Source: Nitrospiraceae bacterium | Lineage (GTDB): Bacteria > Nitrospirota > Nitrospiria > Nitrospirales > Nitrospiraceae | Direction of reading: 5' to 3' | DNA length: 64,000 bases | NCBI GenBank assembly: GCA_019637075.1 | Contig: JAHBWI010000002.1 | Location: forward strand, 62,001 to 126,000 | Shown: positions 49,147-63,557 of the stretch, piece after piece | Layout of the letters: each line of letters opens with the position of its first letter | Numbering within the stretch: the first letter of the stretch is position 1 | Made by a program: the position numbers and the translations under genes | The notes under the pieces: generated by a model | Seen by the model: the letters and a program-made list of their open reading frames with translations, nothing else | Databases searched by the model: none | Told to the model about the DNA's origin: nothing

Positions 49147-51162
49147 TCAGACGGCTCTGGGTGTTTCTTCCACGAGGGGCGCGAGTTTGGCGATTCCCGA
49201 CGTGTCGTAGGGCAATACGCTGAACACCTTGGCAACATTGATGGCCGGCTTGCCGGGACGAAGAATCTTTTGCGCAAGCGTTGCGCACCAGGAGAGAGGA
49301 ATCAGCACGAACGTCGGCAGCCACAGCACTGTCAGGTCAGGATTGGCTTTTCGAAGGTGATCCAACAATGCCTGCTTGGTGGGCGATACGGGATCGAGCA
49401 GATTCAGCGGACTCGGCACGCTGTCCCACTGATCGGCCATCCACGCCAAGAAGCGGCCGGAGAACCCCACATCCACCACCCCCAGCCGGTCACTGGATGA
49501 ACCCACCGCCACAAAAATGTTGCCGAGCCGTTTGCCCAGGCGACCGGGGGGATCGAAATCGCGGTAATCCACCAGCGCACCGGGCCTCACGACTTTCACC
49601 GAGATGCCCAGTTCCTGCCCGAGACGCACCGCCAGCTTTTCCGACTCCAACTTCCCCCAGACATAGGGACCGGATCCTTTGCTGTCCGGCTCCAATGGAT
49701 GGTCGTCGCCGATCGTGCGCCCATTGGCCTGCGCCAGCACCGCAAGACTGCTGACATGAACGAAATGTTTGATGCCCGCCGCCGCCGCGCCACGCACCAT
49801 CTGCTCGGTGGCATCCAGCGAGTTGCGTTGATGCTCTTCCCACCCGCCGGCCGTTTCGGCCGCCGCATGGATCACCGTATCGACCCCCTTGAACAAGGAG
49901 GCCGGCGCACCGGAGGCCACATTGGCCACGACATACTCGGCGCCGGCGATGCGTTCCCAGGGAGAGGGATCCCGTCTGGCAACGATGCGCACCGGTCGGC
50001 CACGCTTCAGCAGCGACCGTACGATTTCTTTGCCCAAGAATCCCGTTCCACCCGTCACGAGGACGCCCCGACTCTCCACCGGTTTGGGCGCGGCGGCCGC
50101 AAGGGCCTTGGTCTCCGCAACTTTCAGCGCCTGGGCCACCCGGTCGCAAATGCGGACAGTCTCAAGCAGGCTTTCCGGCGACAGCGGCGATGCCGTGCCG
50201 GTCCGAACAGCGTCGTAAAACGCCGTAAACAATTCGGCCAACCCGGGGTAGCTGCGCTGGCTCTTGAGAAATCGATTCGCCATCGCGGCCGTCGTGCCGG
50301 TCAGTAGCTGCCAGGCTTGACGATAAGGAGCGAAGAGTTTGTCGATGCCGGAGGAACCGGGACCGATCGCCCGCTGGGTGGTGCTGCGGACATAGTCGGC
50401 AAACAGCGATCCGTTCTTGCCGATGACGCGCAGGTAGCTCTCCACCGGACGTCCCTCTAGCGTCACGATCAGCGTACCGGTCACCCCGCCCCGACGCACC
50501 AGGGCATGCACGGTCCCTGCTTGGCTGACTTCCATCGAGACAAGTTCGATCGGCCCTTCGCCTGCCAACTCCAGGACCCGTAATAGGAGATAGACCGGAT
50601 GCGGCAGAATATCGAGCAACTGATGGTCCGCGCGGAGCACTTGGCGTCCCCCCGGAGCATGGCGGACGGTCCGGAACGAAAAGTAGCTTTCGACGTGTAC
50701 GACCTTCCCAATCGAAGGCAGATAGTCGGCAAGCACCCGCGTGGGAGGTTCATAGAGCAGCTGATGGCCCGCGCAGACGAGCAGATGCTTGGATCGAGCA
50801 TCGTCTAGAATCCGCTGCGCGTCCTCAACCCGTTCGGTAAAGGGTTTCTCGACGTAGATGTGACTGCCGGCCTTCAGCGCGAGCGCAGCCAGCGGAGCAT
50901 GGGACGCCGGCGGGGTAATGATATGGACGACGTGCGGGCGTTCCGCCGCGAGCAGCTCCTCCGGGGTCTTATAACTCTTGATCCCCGGCACGATCGCGCG
51001 CATGGCCGCTTGGGCCGCATCCGAGGGATCGGCTACGGCAATGAGCTCTGCGCCGGGGCAACGAAGTATGGCCCGCGCATGGTGCTGGGCATGTCGCCCC
51101 GCCCCAAACAGCGCGATGCGAATAGGAGTCGCGTGGGGATGTGTGTGGCTCGGGTTGGTCAC
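49147..51162 (-). CDS. Fusion of Gfo/Idh/MocA oxidoreductase and NAD-dependent epimerase/dehydratase
   Basis: The 671-residue protein contains two complete Rossmann modules. Residues ~12-365 are a Gfo/Idh/MocA oxidoreductase (IRIALFGAGRHAQHHARAIL, then VEKPFTERVEDAQRIL). Residues ~370-660 are an extended SDR epimerase (GVLVTGGTGFLGKEIVRSLL, HVSSLAVL, Y-x3-K in YVWGKLESEK). The two parts are joined by a short Ala/Pro-rich linker. One protein could thus carry out two consecutive sugar-nucleotide redox or epimerisation steps. It precedes the polysaccharide cluster on the same strand. The substrate is unknown. Confidence 0.88.
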   Translation of the reverse strand: MTNPSHTHPHATPIRIALFGAGRHAQHHARAILRCPGAELIAVADPSDAAQAAMRAIVPGIKSYKTPEELLAAERPHVVHIITPPASHAPLAALALKAGSHIYVEKPFTERVEDAQRILDDARSKHLLVCAGHQLLYEPPTRVLADYLPSIGKVVHVESYFSFRTVRHAPGGRQVLRADHQLLDILPHPVYLLLRVLELAGEGPIELVSMEVSQAGTVHALVRRGGVTGTLIVTLEGRPVESYLRVIGKNGSLFADYVRSTTQRAIGPGSSGIDKLFAPYRQAWQLLTGTTAAMANRFLKSQRSYPGLAELFTAFYDAVRTGTASPLSPESLLETVRICDRVAQALKVAETKALAAAAPKPVESRGVLVTGGTGFLGKEIVRSLLKRGRPVRIVARRDPSPWERIAGAEYVVANVASGAPASLFKGVDTVIHAAAETAGGWEEHQRNSLDATEQMVRGAAAAGIKHFVHVSSLAVLAQANGRTIGDDHPLEPDSKGSGPYVWGKLESEKLAVRLGQELGISVKVVRPGALVDYRDFDPPGRLGKRLGNIFVAVGSSSDRLGVVDVGFSGRFLAWMADQWDSVPSPLNLLDPVSPTKQALLDHLRKANPDLTVLWLPTFVLIPLSWCATLAQKILRPGKPAINVAKVFSVLPYDTSGIAKLAPLVEETPRAV

Positions 51163-51259: not shown

Positions 51260-52261
51260 CTACATATGATTGCCACCGCTGGGATCCGGGAAGCAGCGCC
51301 CCATACAATCCGGGCAGAGCCCGCCGTTGAACTGGATGGCCGAGCGCTCCGCGATAAACGTCGCCAAATCGTACCATTCGCCTGAGTGATCCGGAACGCG
51401 TTTGCACCAGGCGCACAGATTGATCACGCCCTGGGGCCGCCCCATGCGCTCCTGAACCTCGCTCAGCATGCGGCTCGGTTCGTCCTGGCCGCGACAGAGA
51501 TGCCCGCCCGGAGGAATTTCATGGAATACGAGCACAGCCCCCAATACCGCTCCCCCGTCATCCGCCACCGGAGCGGCGCTGCCACGAATGCATCGTTGGG
51601 AACCGTCCTTCGAAACCAGGCGCGCTTCCTCGATCGTCACGATCCGCACGTCCATCATCGCATGAAGCGCCGGGTTTTCAACGTGCTGGATCGGCCCCTC
51701 CTGCTCGAAGCCCAACAGCGCCGTCAGGCTCATCCCGGAAGCCTCCTCCTGCTTCCATCCCGTGAATTGCTCCGCGGCGGGGTTCAGATAGGTCACGCGT
51801 CCATGGCGGTCCGTCGTCACAACCCCATCCCCGATACAACGCATCGTCGTCGCAATCCAGCGCAAACTTTCCCGCATGTGGCGATCGTGATGCGACCGGT
51901 GCAGCGCCAACTCGATCGTCGTTCGCAGTTCGTTGGGCTGATAGGGCTTGAGCATGTAGCCGGCCGGCGAAGTCACCTTGGCCCGCTCCAGCGTATGGTC
52001 GTCGGCATAGGCCGTCAAGTAAATCACGGGGACATCGCGGGTCCGTTGAATCTGGCGCGCGGTCTCCACGCCGTCCATCTTTCCCTTCAGCACGATATCC
52101 ATGAGAATGAGATCCGGCTGAGACTCCCGAGCCTTGCGGATAGCCTCTTCTCCCGAAGTAGCCGTGGCCGGCACCTTATAACCCAGCCGCTGCAGGCTCA
52201 GCTGGATATCCTTGGCGACAACCGGTTCATCTTCTACGATCAAAATGTTGGCAGCGTTCAT
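51260..52261 (-). CDS. Response regulator: receiver-PAS with C-terminal CxxC region
   Basis: The start at ATG 52261 (MNAANILIVEDEPVVAKDIQ) lies 5 bp beyond the kinase stop; the frame is open further but overlaps the kinase. The 333-residue protein has a receiver domain with phosphoacceptor Asp in LILMDIVLKGKMDG and K in GYMLKPY. A PAS domain (~145-260, GVVTTDRHGRVTYLNPAAEQ) follows, and a C-terminal cysteine cluster (INLCAWCKRV, CPDCMGRC) that resembles the zinc-type output motif of similar bacterial regulators. It is the cognate partner of the PAS kinase. Confidence 0.85.
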   Translation of the reverse strand: MNAANILIVEDEPVVAKDIQLSLQRLGYKVPATATSGEEAIRKARESQPDLILMDIVLKGKMDGVETARQIQRTRDVPVIYLTAYADDHTLERAKVTSPAGYMLKPYQPNELRTTIELALHRSHHDRHMRESLRWIATTMRCIGDGVVTTDRHGRVTYLNPAAEQFTGWKQEEASGMSLTALLGFEQEGPIQHVENPALHAMMDVRIVTIEEARLVSKDGSQRCIRGSAAPVADDGGAVLGAVLVFHEIPPGGHLCRGQDEPSRMLSEVQERMGRPQGVINLCAWCKRVPDHSGEWYDLATFIAERSAIQFNGGLCPDCMGRCFPDPSGGNHM

Positions 52262-52266
52262 GTTCG

Positions 52267-54120
52267 TCACACCCTTTCTGAATACTGCAGCTGCTGGAAC
52301 CGAATTTTCCATTCGGTGCCGGTGCCGCTGCAGAGCTCCGTCGTTCCGTCCAACTTCTCCGCCAGGAGGGTCACCAGTTCCAGGCCAAGAGAGTCGGGAT
52401 TGTTGAGCACTCCGTCCTTTGGAATTCCAATGCCGTCGTCGCTGACGCAAAGCGAGAAGGTCCCGTCTAGGTGGTCTTGGAGCTCGATATGCACCTTCCC
52501 GCCGTTGTCGTCGATGAAGGCGTGCTTGAGACAATTCGAGACGAGTTCGTCGATGATCAGACCGCAGGTCAACCCGGTATCGATGTCGAACTCCACATCG
52601 TCCACGTTCAGTTCCAATACGATCACGTTAGGGTCGACGCCGTAGGATCGGAACAGGTGTCCCGTCAGCGTGCGGATATAATCGCCCATCTTGATCCGGG
52701 AGAGATCGCTCGATCGATGCAGCGTCTCGTGGAGCAATGCAATGGACGTGATGCGGACCTGGCACTCCCGGAACAGTTGGTTGACCAACGGATCTTTGAT
52801 CGAGGCCGACTGCAGATTGAGCAAACTCGAAATGACCTGGAGGTTGTTCTTGACCCGATGGTGCACTTCGCGGAGCAGGCTTTCCTTTTCCTTCAGCGTC
52901 CGACGCAACTGGTCTTCCATTTCTTTGCGCTCGGTCAAGTCGATGCAACTCCCGATATACCCGCCGAAGCGGCCGTTGGCGTCGAACAGCGGTACGCCTG
53001 TGTCGATGATCCAGCGATATTCCCCGTCGTGACGCCGCAGCCGGTACTCAAGCGAGAAGGGCTGCTCCGACTTGAATGCATCCAAATACGATTCGCGACA
53101 GCGCTCCAGATCGGTTGGATGAATCCCCGTGAACCAGTTGTCACCAATCTCTTCTTGAAGCGTGCGCCCGGTAAATTCGAGCCATCGTTTGTTGACGAAG
53201 GTGATGTGCGTGTCCGGGCCCGCCATCCACACCATCACCGGCGCCGTGTCGGCCATCATGCGGAACCGCGCTTCGCTCTGGCGTAAGGCTGCTTCCGTAC
53301 GTTTCTTCTCCGTCACGTCGCGCGCGATCGCCGAAGCCCCCATCACGGTCCCGTCCCCGTCCTTCACCGGGGAGATGGTCAGGGACACGTCGATGCGCTC
53401 CCCTTTCTTTCGTCGTTGCACCGTCTCCACATTGCGGACGTGCTCGCCCCGTGCGATCCGGTCCAGCATCGCCGGCACCTCGTCCAACCGATTCGGCGGA
53501 CAGAGCACCGAGATCGAGCGGCCGATGACTTCTTCCGGCGGATAGCCGTAGACGCGCTCCGCGCCGGCGTTCCAACTTTGAATGATGCCGTTGAGCGACA
53601 TGCCGACAATCGCGTCGTCGGAAGACTTCACGATCGCGGCCAATTCGGAAAGGGCCTCCGCCCGCAATTCTTCGAGTTCTTGGTTCGCCTTGGCCAGATC
53701 GGCCGTACGCTCCTGGACCTGCTGTTCGATGTCCTCGTTGATGCGCATCAACTCGGCTTCGTCTCGTTGACGGCGCAAGCAGAGCAACGTCGTGACCCAA
53801 ATCACCATAAGCGCGAAGGCGCGGTTGGTCACCACGACCCACGTGATGGTCGCGATCGGCCCTCGGAATATGTCGAGCACCGTCACGGAAGACGCGAGCG
53901 CCGCCACCCAGAAGGTGAGCCGTGGGTGGGGAATTCTTGACGTGATCAACACCGGCGCGACGTAGAGCGTGGTGATGGTGAGTCCCAACGGCAACCACCA
54001 ATCGATCGCAAAGATCGCCGCAATGATGGCCAGCGCCGCTCCAAGCACCGGGTAATGTCTGCGTTGAAGGCCGAACAGCATGGCGTAGGGTGTTGTCATC
54101 GTCTGCCTGACCTTGTTCAT
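52267..54120 (-). CDS. PAS-domain histidine kinase, HisKA_2 type
   Basis: The 617-residue sensor kinase has four hydrophobic segments (~25-120), a coiled coil, two PAS domains (~165-285 and ~290-410), and a HisKA_2/HWE-type transmitter with the phosphoacceptor in [20 protein letters not shown] (His near residue 421). A HATPase domain follows, with [16 protein letters not shown] and DDGIGIPK. Kinases of this class often act on receiver proteins without HTH. The partner gene begins 5 bp downstream. The multi-PAS architecture suggests redox, ligand or energy sensing. Confidence 0.92.
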
Positions 54121-55632: not shown

Positions 55633-56751
55633 TCAATGGGTGCGATAAAACTCGGCAATCGTCTGGACGACATACTGCAATTGCTCGTCGGAGAGTTCGG
55701 CGTAAATCGGGAGGGACAATACTTCCTCCGCCGCGCGCTCCGACTGCGGAAACGATCCCTTTTGATGACCAAGATCCCGGTAGCAGTTCTGCAGGTGCAT
55801 CGGCACCGGATAGTACACCTCCGTCCCGACCCCCTTGTCCTTCAAGTAGGCGCGCAACTCATCCCGCTTCTGCACTCGAAGCGTGAATTGGTTGAACACG
55901 TGGAAGCTCGAGGCTTCGACGGTCGGCAACGTCACTCGCCCCTGCAGTTTGGCATCGGCAAACAACTTCTGATACCGCGCCGCGTTCTTGCGACGGCCTT
56001 CGGCCCAGTCGTCCAACCGCTTCAACTTCACCAAGAGAATCGCGGCCTGCAGCGCATCGAGCCGGCTGTTGATACCGATCGCCTCATGCACATAACGCAC
56101 GCGGCTTCCGTGCACCCGCAGCATCGCGATGGATTCGGCCACGGCCTTGTCGTTCGTCGTCACCATACCGCCGTCCCCGAACCCGCCCAGGTTCTTCGAC
56201 GGGAAGAAGCTGAAACAGGCCAGATCTCCTAACACTCCGGCGCGCTTTCCGCCCCGGCCCGCGCCGATCGCCTGGCAGGCATCCTCGATCACACCGATCT
56301 TGTGCCGCTTCGCGATTTGGTTGATGGCGTCCATGTCCGCACATTGCCCGAACAAGTGGACCGGAATGATGGCCTTGGTCTTGGACGTGATCGCGCGCTC
56401 AAGCAAGGCAGGGTCCATATTGAACGTGTCGGGGCGAATGTCGACGAAGACGGGCTTCGCGCCAAGACGGGAGATCGCGCCGGCCGTCGCAAAAAACGTG
56501 AACGGCACGGTCACGACTTCGTCGCCGGCCCTCACGCCCAACGCCATCAACGCCAGCAACAGGGCATCGCTGCCCGATGCCACGCCGATGCCGTGGCTGC
56601 TGCCGACGTACTTGGCAATCGCCTGTTCCAGCGCGGCCACGCGAGGGCCAAGGATGAACCCTTGATCGTCGCAGGTAGCTTCGATGGCCGCGAGGATCTC
56701 GCTTCGCATCGATTGGTATTGGGCCTTCAAATCAAGCAACGGAATGTTCAT
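55633..56751 (-). CDS. DegT/DnrJ/EryC1/StrS sugar aminotransferase
   Basis: This 372-residue PLP enzyme transfers an amino group to a keto-sugar nucleotide. It begins MNIPLLDLKAQYQSMRSEIL and shows GSDALLLALMALGVRAGDEV, VIEDACQAIGA and the lysine loop CFSFFPSKNLGGFGDGGMV (Schiff-base Lys near residue 186). The C-terminal FHVFNQFTLRV and YYPVPMHLQ segments are typical. It is the first enzyme of the minus-strand surface-polysaccharide region in this window, following the glycosyltransferase at 58030. Confidence 0.94.
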   Translation of the reverse strand: MNIPLLDLKAQYQSMRSEILAAIEATCDDQGFILGPRVAALEQAIAKYVGSSHGIGVASGSDALLLALMALGVRAGDEVVTVPFTFFATAGAISRLGAKPVFVDIRPDTFNMDPALLERAITSKTKAIIPVHLFGQCADMDAINQIAKRHKIGVIEDACQAIGAGRGGKRAGVLGDLACFSFFPSKNLGGFGDGGMVTTNDKAVAESIAMLRVHGSRVRYVHEAIGINSRLDALQAAILLVKLKRLDDWAEGRRKNAARYQKLFADAKLQGRVTLPTVEASSFHVFNQFTLRVQKRDELRAYLKDKGVGTEVYYPVPMHLQNCYRDLGHQKGSFPQSERAAEEVLSLPIYAELSDEQLQYVVQTIAEFYRTH

Positions 56752-56836
56752 GCGCGCTCCCTTGGTTCGATTGATCGTCTCGTGTTCACGTTATGCAGCG
56801 GATCGCGTCGGCTGCAGATCCGGGGAATACCTCGAT

Positions 56837-58030
56837 CTACGCCGCCCCCCGCAGATGGGACAGCCTGGGTACAGAGGGCCCTCGCTCGGAGATCAGTTCC
56901 TCGTATTCCCGTTCCTGACGGCGAACCATTTCATAAATATCGAAATCGGGTGAGAGACCATCACGTCCCCGAGCTCCCATGGAGGCCCGAATCTCGGGCG
57001 CGCTCAGCAGATACAGCACGCGTCGCGCGAGTCCGTCGAAATCATGGGGATCCAACAAGTAGCCGTTGTAGCCGTCGCGAATGATCTCCGCCGCCCCGTC
57101 CACCCTGGTGCCGACTACCGGAATTCCGCTCGCCAAGGCCTCGAGGTACACACGCGGCAGCCCTTCCCATAGCGACGTTAACACAAAGACATCCATGCAG
57201 CGTAGCAATTCCGGCACATCCCGTCGCCAGCCGAGCAACTTTACCGCATCGGTCAGGCCCAGTCGCGCCCTCTCCGACTCAAACGAACCCCGCAGTTCAC
57301 CGTCCCCGACATACAGAAACACGGCGTCCGGCCTAGCGCGGCGAACGGTCGCCGCCATCCTCAAAAAATCGAGCGGCGCCTTCTGCGGTTTCAAGGGTCC
57401 CACCATTCCAATGACCGACGTACCGGGCGCCAACCCAATTTCTTGTTTCTTGGCCGCCACGTCCACCGAAAGACTTCGCAATGCACGGAGATCCACTCCG
57501 CTGCGAATCACCCGGCATTGGTCCGCGCGAAACAGGTTGTAGTAAAGCCCCTGCTGCCGGTTGGCTTGCGAGACCGCAAAAAACCGATGCGTCGCCCGCG
57601 CGGCCATTCGCTCCGCCCCCAGCAACAACCAGCGCTGGAGGGCAGATTGGGCAGGCGTCACGCCGAAACCGTGAATCGAATGGATGACGATGGGCACACC
57701 GGCCATCTTCGCGGCCAGCCGACCGAGGATACCGGCTTTGGAACTGTGGGTATGGACGATCATCGGCTGGAGTCGTTCGAGCAGGCGGCGCAATGACTGC
57801 AAAGCCAGCACATCCGACACCGGATTGATGGGACGCACCATCGACGGCACCTGGTACCAATCGTCGCCGAGCAGCGTCTTGGCTTCCCCGTCAAGCAGGC
57901 CCGGCTCACCACTGATCAACATCGGCCGGAATCGCGATCGATCGAGATGCTCGACCGTGAAGAGCGTATTTTGTTGGGCCCCGCCGAGCTCGAGTTTCGT
58001 AATAATATGGCAGACGCCGGGTCTTGTCAC
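56837..58030 (-). CDS. Glycosyltransferase, GT4 family
   Basis: The start is taken as GTG 58030 (VTRPGVCHIITKLELGGAQQ), 17 bp after the stop of the flavoprotein gene, with GGAAAG upstream. The alternative at 58129 lies inside that gene. The ~397-residue GT-B enzyme has the GT4 acceptor loop LELGGAQQNTLF, HSIHGFGVTPAQ, IGMVGPLKPQKAPLDFL and the nucleotide-sugar-binding LTSLWEGLPRVYLEALASGI. It likely uses a UDP- or GDP-sugar to extend an undecaprenyl-linked glycan at the inner membrane. Sugar specificity is not predictable. Confidence 0.88.
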   Translation of the reverse strand: MTRPGVCHIITKLELGGAQQNTLFTVEHLDRSRFRPMLISGEPGLLDGEAKTLLGDDWYQVPSMVRPINPVSDVLALQSLRRLLERLQPMIVHTHSSKAGILGRLAAKMAGVPIVIHSIHGFGVTPAQSALQRWLLLGAERMAARATHRFFAVSQANRQQGLYYNLFRADQCRVIRSGVDLRALRSLSVDVAAKKQEIGLAPGTSVIGMVGPLKPQKAPLDFLRMAATVRRARPDAVFLYVGDGELRGSFESERARLGLTDAVKLLGWRRDVPELLRCMDVFVLTSLWEGLPRVYLEALASGIPVVGTRVDGAAEIIRDGYNGYLLDPHDFDGLARRVLYLLSAPEIRASMGARGRDGLSPDFDIYEMVRRQEREYEELISERGPSVPRLSHLRGAA

Positions 58031-58047
58031 GTAGGGATCTTTCCGCG

Positions 58048-59358
58048 TTACGCCGCCAACGCCGTTCGCAACTGCTCGGCCAGACGCCGCCCCTGGCCCA
58101 TGGCATCTTCCATCGAAGTGTGTTCCCACAACCCATAGCGTCCGATCGAGCTGATGCCGCGACGTTCCAATTCGGCCAGGATTTGCGAGACCGCGCTGCC
58201 GCGGCGCCGATCGAACAGGACATAGGCGTAGTAGATGTCCTTTACGTCGGACATCACCAATTCGTCACTGCGACGGAGCACGCCGGCATCCTCGAGCCCC
58301 TGCCGGACCCGCTCGATCAACTGCTGGCTGGAAATCTTCTCCGTCGGCTGATGAGACATTTCGACGTACATCGAGCTGCATCCTTGGCGCCCCATCGCCT
58401 TCGAGAAGTTCATCGGAAAGCCCGCCCGGTAAAAGGGATAGCGGTGTTCCGGGAAATAGATCCAATGCTTGTCCGACACCTGTTCGCGCGAGACGGCGAG
58501 ATTCACATTGTGTACGGACACCCAGCGGAGCTGAGCCGCCGCCTCACGGATGCCGGCGGGCAAGTCGACGCATCGCCGCACCAGTTCAGGCAGGGGGATG
58601 GTGGACACGAGCCGGTCGTACGACTCGATCCGTTCTCCTGCGGCATCCCGCAGGACCGCCCGGCGACGGGTCGTCTCGATCTGGACGAGGTCGGTGCCGC
58701 ACGCGACCGGCGCCACTCCCGGCAAAAACGCCTCCGGCAACACTCTGATACCGCCGGTGGCCGGATACAGAAACGACGGGTTGTAGCCGAACGCCTTGTC
58801 CTTGATGCCGAGCGCTCCATTCACGACGTCCTTCAGCTCCGGTTTCGGCACCAGCCACGAGACCCATTCGGAGGTCAATTCCTCCAGCGGCACCTGCCAC
58901 AGTTTTTCGTTGAACGGCACCATGAAATGCTTGGCAATGCCGTCCCCGAGACTATCCAGGATCCATTGTTTGAACGAAGGAGACTCCGGTGCCGGGCCGC
59001 GAGCCCCCTTCGTCAGAGTCGCGATGAAGCCCATCAAGCATTCGCGCACCACTTCAGGCGGCAGCCCGTGCGTGTTCACTTGAAAGGGATACTCCGTGTA
59101 CGTCTCGTGGGAATAAATGTAGGAGCGGCGGGCGTGCCGCTCGAGCCGGTTCGGCAACAGCGATTCGACCAACGCCTTGATGGCGGCTTGCCTGAAGTGC
59201 AGCAGATGCCCCGTATAGTCGAAGGTGAATCCGTCCTTCACATAGGAACGGCAGAGGCCTCCGACTTCTGATTCACGTTCGATGATCTTGTACGGTACGC
59301 CTCCCAAGTGATAGGCGGTACTCAGTCCGGCCAGTCCGGCCCCCACGATCAGAATCAT
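58048..59358 (-). CDS. FAD-dependent oxidoreductase (amine-oxidase/UDP-galactopyranose-mutase-like)
   Basis: The 436-residue flavoprotein begins MILIVGAGLAGLSTAYHLGG, the FAD-binding GxGxxG motif, and continues with GGLCRSYVKDGFTFDYTGHL, which resembles UDP-galactopyranose mutase and protoporphyrinogen-oxidase-like proteins of polysaccharide clusters. The C-terminal FAD motif is SSIGRYGLWEHTSMEDAMGQ. The start ATG overlaps the WecA-like stop (ATGA). By context it acts on a sugar nucleotide or lipid-linked sugar. The reaction cannot be stated. Confidence 0.85.
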   Translation of the reverse strand: MILIVGAGLAGLSTAYHLGGVPYKIIERESEVGGLCRSYVKDGFTFDYTGHLLHFRQAAIKALVESLLPNRLERHARRSYIYSHETYTEYPFQVNTHGLPPEVVRECLMGFIATLTKGARGPAPESPSFKQWILDSLGDGIAKHFMVPFNEKLWQVPLEELTSEWVSWLVPKPELKDVVNGALGIKDKAFGYNPSFLYPATGGIRVLPEAFLPGVAPVACGTDLVQIETTRRRAVLRDAAGERIESYDRLVSTIPLPELVRRCVDLPAGIREAAAQLRWVSVHNVNLAVSREQVSDKHWIYFPEHRYPFYRAGFPMNFSKAMGRQGCSSMYVEMSHQPTEKISSQQLIERVRQGLEDAGVLRRSDELVMSDVKDIYYAYVLFDRRRGSAVSQILAELERRGISSIGRYGLWEHTSMEDAMGQGRRLAEQLRTALAA

Positions 59359-60410
59359 ATGGCCCCTGACCTCCCTGCTTGCGTGCTGGGTTGCGGCGTT
59401 GTCGCGTTCGGCAAGCCGGCCGAGACGTTGACCCGAGTCAAGGCCACCGCCGCCACGCCAAGACCGAGCAGCGTCAGCCCGCTCAGCACGAGGGCCAAGT
59501 CTTGCGGCACGGACATGACTAAGAGCCCGATCCCCCCAAGGAGTGCTGCCCCCGCATAGCTGACCAGCACGACTTGCGGCACGGTCAAGCCCCAGTGTCG
59601 AAGCCGGATAGCCAGATGGTCAGGACTGCCGAGAAACACCGGGAGCCCTCGCAAGAACCGAATGTACATCACAAACAACGTGTCGAAGATCGGCATCCCG
59701 AGAATCAAGACGGGGGTGAGCAGCGAGACGGAATGTCCCTCGGTGTACTTCCCGATCATCGAGAGCGCGCCCAGCATCAACCCGATGAACATGGCGCCGG
59801 CATCGCCCATATAGATGGAGGCGGGACGCCAGTTGTATCGCAGAAATCCCAGCAGACTGCCGATCAAGGCCGCCAGCATAAAAGCAATCATGTTGTCGCC
59901 GTTCAACATCGCCACGACACAAAGAAACGCCGCACTGATCAGGCCGACTCCGGCAGACAACCCGTCCATGATGTCGAGCAGGTTGAAGGCATTGATGATG
60001 CCCACCATCCAAAACACCGTCAGCGCCAGGTCAAGCCAGTCCGGCAACGATGCGATCTCGATTCTGATCCCGCTCTTGATCAGGACGAACACCGCAAGCA
60101 ACTGCCCGGCCAATTTGGTGCCGGGGGACAGAACGCCAAAGTCGTCGATCAACCCCAGCATCACGATCAGCGTTCCACTCAACACGATGCCCAGGACGTC
60201 ATGCCTGAATTCGAACGTGAATGCCAAGCTCACCAGAAACGACAAGTAGATGGCTAATCCGCCGAGATAGGCCACCGGCTCGCCCTGATGCTTCAACCGA
60301 CCGTCCGGACGGTCGACGATGCCGAACTTCAACGCTGCCTGCCGCGCAAGCGGCACCCCATAGAGGGACAGCGCAAACGCCAGCAGAAATGTCAGTCCGA
60401 GCAAAATCAT
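59355..60410 (-). CDS. MraY/WecA-family undecaprenyl-phosphate sugar-1-phosphate transferase
   Basis: The ATG at 60410 (MILLGLTFLLAFALSLYGVP) is chosen over a frame open to 60485. The 351-residue protein has about ten to eleven helices. Conserved cytoplasmic motifs are VDRPDGRLKHQGEPVAYLGG, LGLIDDFGVLSPGTKL, NAFNLLDIMDGLSAGV and IYMGDAGAMFIG, containing the catalytic Asp residues of the family. The distal His motif is SPDHLAIRLRHWG. It should load the first sugar-phosphate onto undecaprenyl phosphate. Its stop is coupled (ATGA) to the flavoprotein. Confidence 0.92.
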   Translation of the reverse strand: MILLGLTFLLAFALSLYGVPLARQAALKFGIVDRPDGRLKHQGEPVAYLGGLAIYLSFLVSLAFTFEFRHDVLGIVLSGTLIVMLGLIDDFGVLSPGTKLAGQLLAVFVLIKSGIRIEIASLPDWLDLALTVFWMVGIINAFNLLDIMDGLSAGVGLISAAFLCVVAMLNGDNMIAFMLAALIGSLLGFLRYNWRPASIYMGDAGAMFIGLMLGALSMIGKYTEGHSVSLLTPVLILGMPIFDTLFVMYIRFLRGLPVFLGSPDHLAIRLRHWGLTVPQVVLVSYAGAALLGGIGLLVMSVPQDLALVLSGLTLLGLGVAAVALTRVNVSAGLPNATTPQPSTQAGRSGAI

Positions 60411-60417
60411 GGCTTCG

Positions 60418-61602
60418 TTATGGAATTCCGTGAGAAGGACGGTCGGCGGAACCCGACATTTCCCCCGCTGCCCCCACGCGGGCATACAGGGACTGCAGGT
60501 ACGCCCGATACTGATCCTCCGAATGGTGCTCCATCACACGTCGGCGCGCACGCTCTCCCATCATTCGGCACTGCTCGGGGGTGCGCAGGAGCGCCACGAC
60601 TGCATGGGCCAATTCGCCAGCCGAGCGTCGAATTCTTATGCCGGTCTCGTCATCAACCAGCTTCCACGTAAGCCCGACGTCGGTCGCCACCGTCGCCGCC
60701 CCAGAGGCCATTGCCTCCAACAGCCCCTGAGACGGGAAATTGTCCCGCTGCTGCAGCGACACGAAGATGCAGGCCCGACTGAGCGTCGGAGCCAGATCCT
60801 CTACAAACCCGGTCGTGACGATGGACCTGATCCCCAGTCGATCGACGGCAAGCTCCACCGATCCGCGGAGCGGCCCATCCCCGAACAAACCGAACCTTGC
60901 CTCCGGCATGGCCTGGTGAACGGCCGGTATCGCGTCCAGAAACAGCAGCGGATCCTTTTCTTCCACTAACCGGCCTGCGAACACCACCAGCGGCTGTTTG
61001 GTCGCTGCAGGACGAAAGCGGGTCACGTCCACAACGCTTCCCATCGAGCAGAGAATCCGATTCGGTGCCACACCGTCTCGGACCAACGACACTTTGATAT
61101 CTTCGGTCAATGCATCCACGGCATGGCTCCGTCCGATAGCGGCCCGAAACAGGGGCAAGGCGCGAGCCGAACCGACATGGCCGGCCAGATTGGGATCCGT
61201 CACCGAGATCACATACCGATGGCTGCGCCTCACGGACATCAACGGCCGGGCCACGTAGGCTCCGCCAAGGACGATATGGAACAGCCGGGGTGCCGCCAAC
61301 CCGTAACGCAGCAGCAGCCAAGCCGCCATCAACACATAGTCGAGCTTTCTGATCCAAAACTGCGCACGAGGTCCGATGGCTGCGAAGCGCTCGGCCACAC
61401 GACCGAACGGCTCCCCTAACCGCACCACTCGAGCCCCGCGTTCCGGTACCAATGCACCCGCTACCAGCTTAGCCCAAAGCCCCCGATTGATCACGAAAAC
61501 AGTGTCTTTTTCCTCCTCGGCCATATGGGCAAACAGACGCCCCAGGCGTCGCTCCGTGCCCCCAACTCCCGTATTGTTGATGAGGACTAGGACGCGCCGC
61601 AT
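60418..61602 (-). CDS. Glycosyltransferase, GT4 family
   Basis: The ATG at 61602 (MRRVLVLINNTGVGGTERRL) overlaps the amidotransferase stop at 61587 and is preferred to 61632. The ~394-residue GT-B enzyme shows the N-terminal NTGVGGTERRLGRLF loop and the C-terminal LVVFAGRLVEEKDPLLFLDA, RFGLFGDGPLR, FVEDLAPTLSRACIFVSLQQ and FPSQGLLEAMASGAATVATD. It likely adds a sugar to the lipid-linked repeat unit. Its stop lies 7 bp before the WecA-like start, so the two genes are closely coupled. Confidence 0.88.
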   Translation of the reverse strand: MRRVLVLINNTGVGGTERRLGRLFAHMAEEEKDTVFVINRGLWAKLVAGALVPERGARVVRLGEPFGRVAERFAAIGPRAQFWIRKLDYVLMAAWLLLRYGLAAPRLFHIVLGGAYVARPLMSVRRSHRYVISVTDPNLAGHVGSARALPLFRAAIGRSHAVDALTEDIKVSLVRDGVAPNRILCSMGSVVDVTRFRPAATKQPLVVFAGRLVEEKDPLLFLDAIPAVHQAMPEARFGLFGDGPLRGSVELAVDRLGIRSIVTTGFVEDLAPTLSRACIFVSLQQRDNFPSQGLLEAMASGAATVATDVGLTWKLVDDETGIRIRRSAGELAHAVVALLRTPEQCRMMGERARRRVMEHHSEDQYRAYLQSLYARVGAAGEMSGSADRPSHGIP

Positions 61603-63557
61603 GGCCGTTGATCCGCAAACTGACGACACCATAATTCCAAATTGAGCCAGCGCCAGAGCGTCGTACCGATCGAGGCATGTCCATCACGATGCGCCGACCA
61701 GGCGCGGCGGGCTCCGGCAATGTCCAGGTAACCTCTGGAGCCGGTACGGGAATCCTCCAGGCAGTCCGCCAACACCCGCCCCAATTCGCCACGAAACCAT
61801 TCGTCCTCCGGAGTCGCAAACCCCATCTTGTCCCTCCGCCACTGGATTGCGGGCGGCAACAGCCCCTCGAGCGATTCTCTCAGTAGGACCTTGGTCCAGC
61901 CGTCCCGCAACTTCCACCGCGTCTCGAGCCCCGACACCCACTCGACGAGTCGATGGTCCAAGAACGGCAACCGCGCCTCGACGCCGAACGCCATCGCGTT
62001 ACGATCCTCGGCACGCAACAAAGCCCGGAGCCCTTGCCGGAACAGCAATCGGCGTTGCAGTGAAGCCACCGCATCCGCCGCTTCCGGGTCCGGCGGCTCA
62101 GGGTTACCGTATTGCCTGGAAAACTCACGCCGCATCCAGCTTCGGCTCCCGCTCCCTGCGCAGCGAACGCCGTGCACGACATCTGGCGGAAACAGGGCGC
62201 GGCCGAAATTCCCGAGAGCTTGCGGAGGAACGCTGCCATGCAAGCGGCGATAGGCTTGCCCCTCGCGGAACAACCTCGCCCATTGGCCGGCACGCAGGAG
62301 ATCGGCGAAGTAGGCGCCGAAAAACCCATGGTAACCGCCAAGGAGTTCATCGGCCCCCTGCCCGTCGAGCACCACCTTCACCCCCGACTCGGACACGAGG
62401 CGCATCACCGCCCACTGGGCAAAGATGCTGGTAGAACCGAACGGCTCATCATGTTGCCAAACCAGATGCTCTACCACCGTGGCCAATTCTTTCGGGTCCG
62501 GGATCGTGTAATGGGCATCGAGGCCACGGGCCCGCACCAGTTCTTGGATATACCGCCGCTCGTCGAAATGTTCCTGGGCAAAACAAGCGGAAAAGGTCTT
62601 CTGCCGGGGATAGGAACCTCGAGGGAGAGCGGAAGCCGAGGCGCGGAGGAAATCCTGCGTCACGCACACGATCGCAGAGGAGTCCAATCCTCCGCTCAGA
62701 CAGCTTCCCACCGCCACATCACTGCGCAACCGGATCCGCACGGCATCCGACAACAGGACCCGAAACCTTTCCCGCACGGCGGCATCCGATTCATCAACCG
62801 TCTGTTGCCTGTCGATTGGAAGGCTCCAGTACTGTCCCTTTACCAACCGCCCGTCTTTGATGAGAAGATAGTGCGCCGGTTCGAGTTGCCGCACCTGTTC
62901 GACGAACGTCTCGTCCGTATAGTCCAACCGCCCGCCATCCAGATAGGCGTAGGCCAAGGGTTGATTGACCGTGATCGCCCCGACGGCGGGCAAGACCGCC
63001 TTCAACTCCGATGCGAAGGCCAGCCGTCCGTCCTTCCAAGCGTAATAGAAGGGTTTCTCTCCCATCCGGTCCCTGGCGCAGACAAGCTGCCGCAAGACAC
63101 CATCCCACAGGGCAAAAGCAAACATCCCATTGAGACGATCAAGGCAGGCCAATCCCCACTGGCGATAGGCAGCCAGCAACACTTCGGTATCCGATGCCGA
63201 CCGAAACGACCACCCCAATTCACGCAATTCCTGCCGCAGTTCGACGAAGTTGTAGATCTCGCCGTTATAGGTGATCCAATCACGCCCATCCGCGCTCGCC
63301 ATCGGTTGATGGCCCGCCTCGCTGAGATCGATGATCGCGAGCCGCCGGTGCGCCAGGCCAAGCGCAAACCGGCCGGTCATCGCCGACAGCTGTTCATGGC
63401 TGCTGGCTGTGACCGCCGCACCCCCGGCACCCGTCGCGAGGAGGGTATACCCCTCGCCGTCCGGCCCACGATGGGCCTGTAGCTCGGACATCGTCCCGAG
63501 GATGCGGGGGGCGATCGCGTCACCGGAAGGTACCAGCAGGCCCGCTATCGCGCACAT
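61587..63557 (-). CDS. asnB: Asparagine synthase-type amidotransferase (AsnB family)
   Basis: The 656-residue enzyme begins M-C-A-I-A-G, exposing catalytic Cys2 of the class II glutaminase, with AHRGPDGEGY and YNGEIYNFVELRQELR. The synthetase domain has the ATP PP-loop SCLSGGLDSSAIVCV and DGQGADELLGGYHGFF. In polysaccharide clusters this family often amidates sugar carboxylates such as uronic acids, rather than making free asparagine, so the symbol denotes family only. It overlaps the upstream glycosyltransferase by ~13 bp and the downstream one by ~16 bp. Confidence 0.9.
   Translation of the reverse strand: MCAIAGLLVPSGDAIAPRILGTMSELQAHRGPDGEGYTLLATGAGGAAVTASSHEQLSAMTGRFALGLAHRRLAIIDLSEAGHQPMASADGRDWITYNGEIYNFVELRQELRELGWSFRSASDTEVLLAAYRQWGLACLDRLNGMFAFALWDGVLRQLVCARDRMGEKPFYYAWKDGRLAFASELKAVLPAVGAITVNQPLAYAYLDGGRLDYTDETFVEQVRQLEPAHYLLIKDGRLVKGQYWSLPIDRQQTVDESDAAVRERFRVLLSDAVRIRLRSDVAVGSCLSGGLDSSAIVCVTQDFLRASASALPRGSYPRQKTFSACFAQEHFDERRYIQELVRARGLDAHYTIPDPKELATVVEHLVWQHDEPFGSTSIFAQWAVMRLVSESGVKVVLDGQGADELLGGYHGFFGAYFADLLRAGQWARLFREGQAYRRLHGSVPPQALGNFGRALFPPDVVHGVRCAGSGSRSWMRREFSRQYGNPEPPDPEAADAVASLQRRLLFRQGLRALLRAEDRNAMAFGVEARLPFLDHRLVEWVSGLETRWKLRDGWTKVLLRESLEGLLPPAIQWRRDKMGFATPEDEWFRGELGRVLADCLEDSRTGSRGYLDIAGARRAWSAHRDGHASIGTTLWRWLNLELWCRQFADQRPCGAS

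Follow-up and report, generated by a model that had tools for sequence, protein, structure and literature searches.

Gfo-type UDP-sugar 3-dehydrogenases are known from WlbA/WbpB and GnnA, and the Wbp order, with the WbpB route, is described in PMC10622841. In the DprE1/DprE2 system, two enzymes jointly epimerize one sugar; DprE1 is a flavoenzyme (PMC6153800) and DprE2 has been modeled like an NADPH-dependent reductase (PMC9993113). ArnA combines a dehydrogenase and a formyltransferase that are selectively fused in one bacterial group (PMC12650200).

The window, by which we mean the entire 64,000-nucleotide stretch of DNA that was analyzed, encodes on its minus strand (positions 49147–51162) a 671-residue chain in which a Gfo/Idh/MocA enzyme is fused to an SDR. 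This chain resembles WlbA/WbpB and GnnA in its fold over residues 10–351 (3q2k_A, Z 30.5; 7bvj_D, Z 30.3), in its E-K-P motif, and in its polysaccharide setting, and differs from them in sequence (about 18–20% identity), in possessing an SDR half, which those entries lack, and in having no constant aminotransferase partner. The likeness to DprE1/DprE2 would lie in the proposed logic of oxidation and then reduction of one sugar; DprE1 and DprE2 are separate chains acting on a lipid-linked sugar, whereas here a single chain draws on other enzyme families, its first half being a Gfo/Idh/MocA Rossmann enzyme and no flavoprotein oxidase. Like ArnA, the fusion unites two putative sugar-modifying enzymes in one group of bacteria, with a different partner domain and different chemistry. 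A literature search with most subscription journals outside its scope returned no description of a Gfo-SDR fusion, which is weak evidence of absence. The domain architecture itself is, we presume, already listed in domain databases.

The Gfo-SDR chain and its distribution

The gene is a single open reading frame with a GTG start at 51162 and its stop at 49147; the plus-strand reading of the same interval contains several stops. Pfam assigned residues 14–133 to GFO_IDH_MocA (PF01408; E 7.7e-24, 85.1 bits against a cut-off of 24) and residues 367–531 to the Epimerase domain (E 1.2e-18, 67.9 bits against a cut-off of 20.9). Taken with the structural match over model residues 10–351 and residue counts among homologs, the first assignment places the Gfo/Idh/MocA domain at residues of about 12–351 (50110–51129, minus strand), with key residues in the GxG at positions 20 and 22, D45, E105-K106-P107, D184, and H188. 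The extended SDR domain, delimited by the second assignment, a model of residues 361–671, and residue counts, comprises residues of about 366–666 (49165–50067, minus strand) and contains G371xxG374xxG377, R396, S471/S472, and Y500xxxK504. Between them is a short linker of residues about 352–365 (50068–50109, minus strand), which DSSP analysis of the model describes as the end of a helix followed by coil; across the 51 Gfo-SDR fused reading frames identified below, 7 to 44 residues separate the two profile matches. AlphaFold modeling of the whole chain, based on 36 aligned fused sequences, yielded two well-formed domains with a mean pLDDT of 89.2 and a pTM of 0.79, the segments with values under 50 being residues 1–10 and 669–671, and the SDR half alone (residues 361–671; alignment of 61 sequences) was modeled with a pLDDT of 94.9 and a pTM of 0.92. 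That two NAD(P)-binding enzymes occupy one 671-residue chain, as the original prediction had it, is borne out by the exact coordinates, the single reading frame, and the two Pfam domains scoring above cut-off.

An artefact in which a sequencing error removed the stop between two adjacent genes is ruled out by the recurrence of the open fusion in other genomes, complete chromosomes among them; we found no point in favor of this explanation and consider its probability negligible. In Nitrospirota, the uninterrupted fusion is present in 30 of 295 genomes, representing 6 of 136 genera, and none of the 30 contains an internal stop; in the complete chromosome of Ca. Nitrospira defluvii (FP929003), it is encoded in a single frame with 86% identity. 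A search of 61 genomes for matches over at least 650 of the 671 residues, in one frame without a stop, identified 9 (the window's own genome and 8 relatives), all of which are within the 37 genomes of the same family, with none in the 24 genomes from other families. Gemmatimonadota, the phylum of locus L064, yielded matches at E 1e-60 or better in 15 of 298 genomes at 16 places, every one of which crosses the domain join in one frame; two of these places are without part of the Gfo start, and one stops at query residue 547. The scan of genome contigs yielded at least 79 loci, and among plasmids there was no match at E 1e-30.

Fused and separate forms of the pair

We scored the open reading frames of 94 loci with profiles of both halves, excluding the duplicates L031 and L033, and tabulated 100 Gfo regions. 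Of these, 51 are in Gfo-SDR fusions (a count inflated by close Nitrospira copies; 16 loci were removed before trees were built) and 1 is in a reversed fusion; a further 24 belong to adjacent pairs in the order Gfo-SDR and 11 to adjacent pairs in the order SDR-Gfo. For the remaining 13, several of which are located at contig ends, no partner was found. Outside the fused clade, the two enzymes are usually encoded by separate adjacent genes, in either order and in many phyla, and the relatives contain both the same fusion and the adjacent gene pairs that the original prediction had proposed to look for. Exactly four overlapping bases are shared by 11 of the 24 adjacent Gfo-SDR pairs and eight by 4 of the 11 SDR-Gfo pairs; other overlaps between paired genes vary with the choice of start.

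The reversed fusion, located on a Dehalococcoidia contig (L095, 2–1900), has the SDR-Gfo order in one frame but lacks its N-terminus, where the contig ends. Among the 301 genomes searched it was the sole example, and we treat it as no more than a candidate for an independent fusion. One genome (G022) contains the fusion (L035, 8947–10968) and also, as two separate genes in the SDR-Gfo order, the unfused kind of pair (L043, 8264–10482), and the genomes of L090 and L103 also hold both fused and separate forms. On the contig of a gammaproteobacterial symbiont (L076, 554–2588), the Gfo half of the fusion is split into two reading frames, through either error or decay. Three-domain versions of 954, 990, and 998 residues (L062, L077, and L082) were judged by eye to be upstream read-through and dropped because the extra part, which resembles a low-complexity, high-GC frame, precedes a start codon and the normal N-terminal sequence.

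In the tree of Gfo regions (75 rows), a branch with a support of 99 has 30 fused and 4 partnerless rows on one side and all unfused pairs together with five long-branched fused rows on the other. The SDR tree (77 rows) contains a fused clade of 30 rows with a support of 99 and an unfused clade of 35 with a support of 97. Members of the main fused clade in the Gfo tree come from Nitrospirota, Gemmatimonadota, Acidobacteriota, Rokubacteria, and Ectothiorhodospiraceae, and the long-branched fused rows outside it (L088, L089, L090, L095, and L103) are the same in both trees. Because fused and unfused forms are separated by a single change on the Gfo tree, repeated forward fusion is unsupported. 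Pairwise identities of the Gfo halves correlate with those of the SDR halves (r of 0.94 when all 70 pairs, fused or adjacent, are taken together, 0.93 for the 24 unfused Gfo-SDR pairs, and 0.92 for the 10 SDR-Gfo pairs), as would be expected if both halves were inherited jointly, and mere co-location would also produce such correlations.

We regard functional coupling of the Gfo and SDR halves as well supported. The fusion could serve only fixed stoichiometry or co-expression within one pathway, its two steps being non-consecutive and nothing being passed between the sites, and the short, variable linker and the occurrence of unfused pairs in many phyla would suit such an arrangement; pairing in both gene orders, however, suggests a closer tie than a shared pathway alone, and we judge this explanation to be quite unlikely.

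Catalytic and cofactor positions

The hallmarks of Gfo/Idh/MocA enzymes are an E-K-P motif and a downstream catalytic histidine, and those of extended SDRs are GxxGxxG, a serine, and YxxxK. Residues were counted in 100 Gfo and 87 SDR regions, with denominators given by the regions that have a letter at the position concerned. Among the Gfo regions, E-K-P occurs in 97 of 97 and H188 in 91 of 91; in the SDR regions, G371, G374, and G377 are found in 86 of 86, Y500 and K504 in 85 of 85, and S471 in 83 of 85. Both halves thus look catalytically intact by sequence. Residue 184 of the Gfo half (50611–50613) is Asp in each of the 51 forward fusions, whereas the 32 unfused pairs in which the position is covered (24 Gfo-SDR and 8 SDR-Gfo) all have Asn. 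This is a difference between clades, and the fused enzymes may therefore not share the chemistry of the unfused ones.

When the whole-chain model was submitted to Foldseek, the top rows were Gfo enzymes including GenD2, WlbA with UDP-GlcNAcA, GnnA (titled UDP-GlcNAc 3-dehydrogenase), and KijD10 (titled 3-ketoreductase). The two-domain Gfo fold with its C-terminal sheet was matched with Z of about 29–33 over residues 10–351, and inositol, levoglucosan, and glycosidase-type relatives also scored for this half. Several of the top Foldseek neighbors act at the sugar C3, which would make C3 a weak guess for the oxidized position. The UDP-GlcNAc 3-dehydrogenase model NF040723 gives 55 bits, against a cut-off of 450.

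At the position after the second Rossmann strand, Asp usually favors NAD(H) and Arg NADP(H). The Gfo half has Asp here (D45) in 96 of 96 regions, and the SDR half has Arg (R396, after strand β2) in 86 of 86. Among other members of the two families in the genomes of relatives, with one fusion excluded from both counts, 12 of 15 Gfo sequences have Asp and 4 of 7 SDR sequences have Arg; neither D45 nor R396 is therefore special to the pair, and it is their invariance within the pair that counts.

Structural comparison of the SDR half gave a top Z of 25.5 over 265 residues with an rmsd of 2.9, and NDP-sugar epimerases tied with reductases at Z of 23 to 25.5, such that the fold did not separate them. 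In a scheme along the lines of the original prediction, the Gfo half would oxidize a nucleotide sugar, and the SDR half would act before or after it as a classical NAD-recycling epimerase or dehydratase. The first Foldseek rows for the SDR model are indeed UDP-GlcNAc and UDP-glucose 4-epimerases, and the Pfam name Epimerase and the polysaccharide setting point the same way. The acidic residue expected after β2 in an NAD-recycling epimerase of the GalE type, which is Asp in the PDB alignment of the NAD-dependent epimerase 6wjb, is absent, however, with Arg in its place in all 86 regions, and the GalE model TIGR01179 gives 26.9 bits against a cut-off of 262.3. The best NCBIfam model for this half is that of the hopanoid-associated sugar epimerase HpnA (TIGR03466), whose match is partial (residues 367–538) and, at 81.5 bits, far below the cut-off of 367.65. 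The best solved relatives of the SDR profile include reductases of the NADPH type; they are gox2253 (3wj7), the MxaA reductase domain, and cinnamoyl-CoA reductases, each with an Arg aligned with R396. They differ from the SDR half in having other partners, and neither the MxaA reductase domain nor cinnamoyl-CoA reductase would be expected to act on a sugar. These sequence comparisons make "epimerase" a doubtful name for the SDR half and do not support epimerization in the manner of GalE, and the scheme that depends on it appears unlikely.

Polysaccharide setting and proposed function

The polysaccharide cluster occupies 55633–63557 on the minus strand and runs past the end of the window, beyond which its reading frames were named by eye. 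Starting from a DegT aminotransferase (55633), it contains genes for GT4, an FAD amine-oxidase-like protein, a WecA-like protein (PF00953), a further GT4, and an asparagine-synthase-type amidotransferase. The fusion is about 4.5 kb from this cluster on the same strand, in agreement with its predicted proximity, with three genes between (a trypsin-like protease, a PAS/HisKA_2 kinase, and a response regulator). Within 51260–54120, the response-regulator/PAS and PAS/HisKA_2 kinase reading frames overlap by 268 bases as called, and the true start of the response regulator is probably internal. In four other genomes of the family (L034–L037), the fusion is situated directly amid clusters of GT4, Wzy_C, ATP-grasp-like, deacetylase-like, and asparagine-synthase genes; the ATP-grasp label at these loci and the GT4 label of cluster c3 are our own assignments. 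A block of genes for a PaaK-like ligase, GT4, an XrtA-type amidotransferase, and mostly Wzy_C recurs near a second fused subclade (L038, L068–L070, L072, L074, and L117).

Of the 42 fused loci that extend over 10 kb or more, 38 have a polysaccharide gene (12 of 15 of the defluvii type and 26 of 27 others); at unfused loci of this size, the figures are 12 of 18 for Gfo-SDR and 4 of 9 for SDR-Gfo. In all these counts, the query genes were drawn partly from the scored loci and are biased towards matches. In a control set of 20 stretches of 20 kb, taken at regular intervals along a single genome (G029), 2 contained such a gene. The DegT gene suggests another route, in which the Gfo half would make a 3-keto sugar for the nearby aminotransferase, as when 2,3-diamino sugars are made by a route of the WbpB-WbpE type, with the SDR performing a separate step. 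WlbA and GnnA rank high among the structural matches, and DegT-like genes are found both in the cluster of the window and in 12 of 15 defluvii-type loci; they are found, however, in 2 of 27 other fused loci, 1 of 18 Gfo-SDR loci, and 4 of 9 SDR-Gfo loci, and, with such genes common only in the defluvii type among fused loci, amination is not a shared theme. Sugar-6-dehydrogenase-like genes, present in 0 of 15 defluvii-type and 1 of 27 other fused loci, and the NF040723 score given above also argue against this route, which we consider quite unlikely.

The intact sites, the adjacent separate counterparts, the shared history of the halves, and the polysaccharide setting make linked steps on one substrate the natural reading, and the two halves probably act in such steps on one sugar. 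Of the channeled successive steps envisaged in the original prediction, the coupling of the halves stands on this evidence, channeling between them and a sugar nucleotide as substrate would be conjectural, and the part that casts the SDR as an epimerase is called into question by R396. A pair of NAD-type and NADP-type sites could oxidize and then reduce, inverting a carbon. We favor, with a probability of roughly 0.4, a bifunctional oxidoreductase that helps to make a building block of polysaccharide. NAD+-linked oxidation of a sugar hydroxyl, with C3 as the likeliest position, would be the task of the Gfo half; the SDR half would carry out NADPH-linked reduction of the resulting keto-sugar or its rearranged form, and the net result would be a two-step stereo-inversion driven forward by the NAD+/NADPH difference. 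Here the cofactors are inferred from one residue per half, the position oxidized is suggested by structural neighbors in the model, and the common substrate, its nature, and the direction are putative. Pairing in both gene orders, the correlated identities of the halves, intact sites, the invariance of D45 and R396, the Arg shared with the best solved SDR relatives, the sugar C3 enzymes among the Gfo matches, and polysaccharide neighbors favor the two-step inversion; against it are the ordinariness of D45, the non-uniqueness of R396, the tied SDR fold, the split at residue 184, the smaller share of polysaccharide neighbors at unfused loci, and the sufficiency of co-location to explain the correlation of the halves.

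In a tentative extension, which we consider somewhat unlikely, the pair would constitute a widespread and undescribed epimerase module that serves surface polysaccharides with two enzymes, an NAD+-linked Gfo dehydrogenase and an NADPH-linked SDR reductase, which together invert one sugar carbon through a keto intermediate, encoded by separate genes in both orders and fused in a clade of Nitrospirota, Gemmatimonadota, Acidobacteriota, Rokubacteria, and Gammaproteobacteria. The families of the two halves are both very large, and it is difficult to predict what their members act on; the fusion and the adjacent pairs in many phyla are a sign of joint action, and the fusion offers a single protein that can be expressed to identify the substrate. 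The two-step inversion, if true, would represent a new route to unusual surface-polysaccharide sugars in nitrite oxidizers and other uncultured bacteria.
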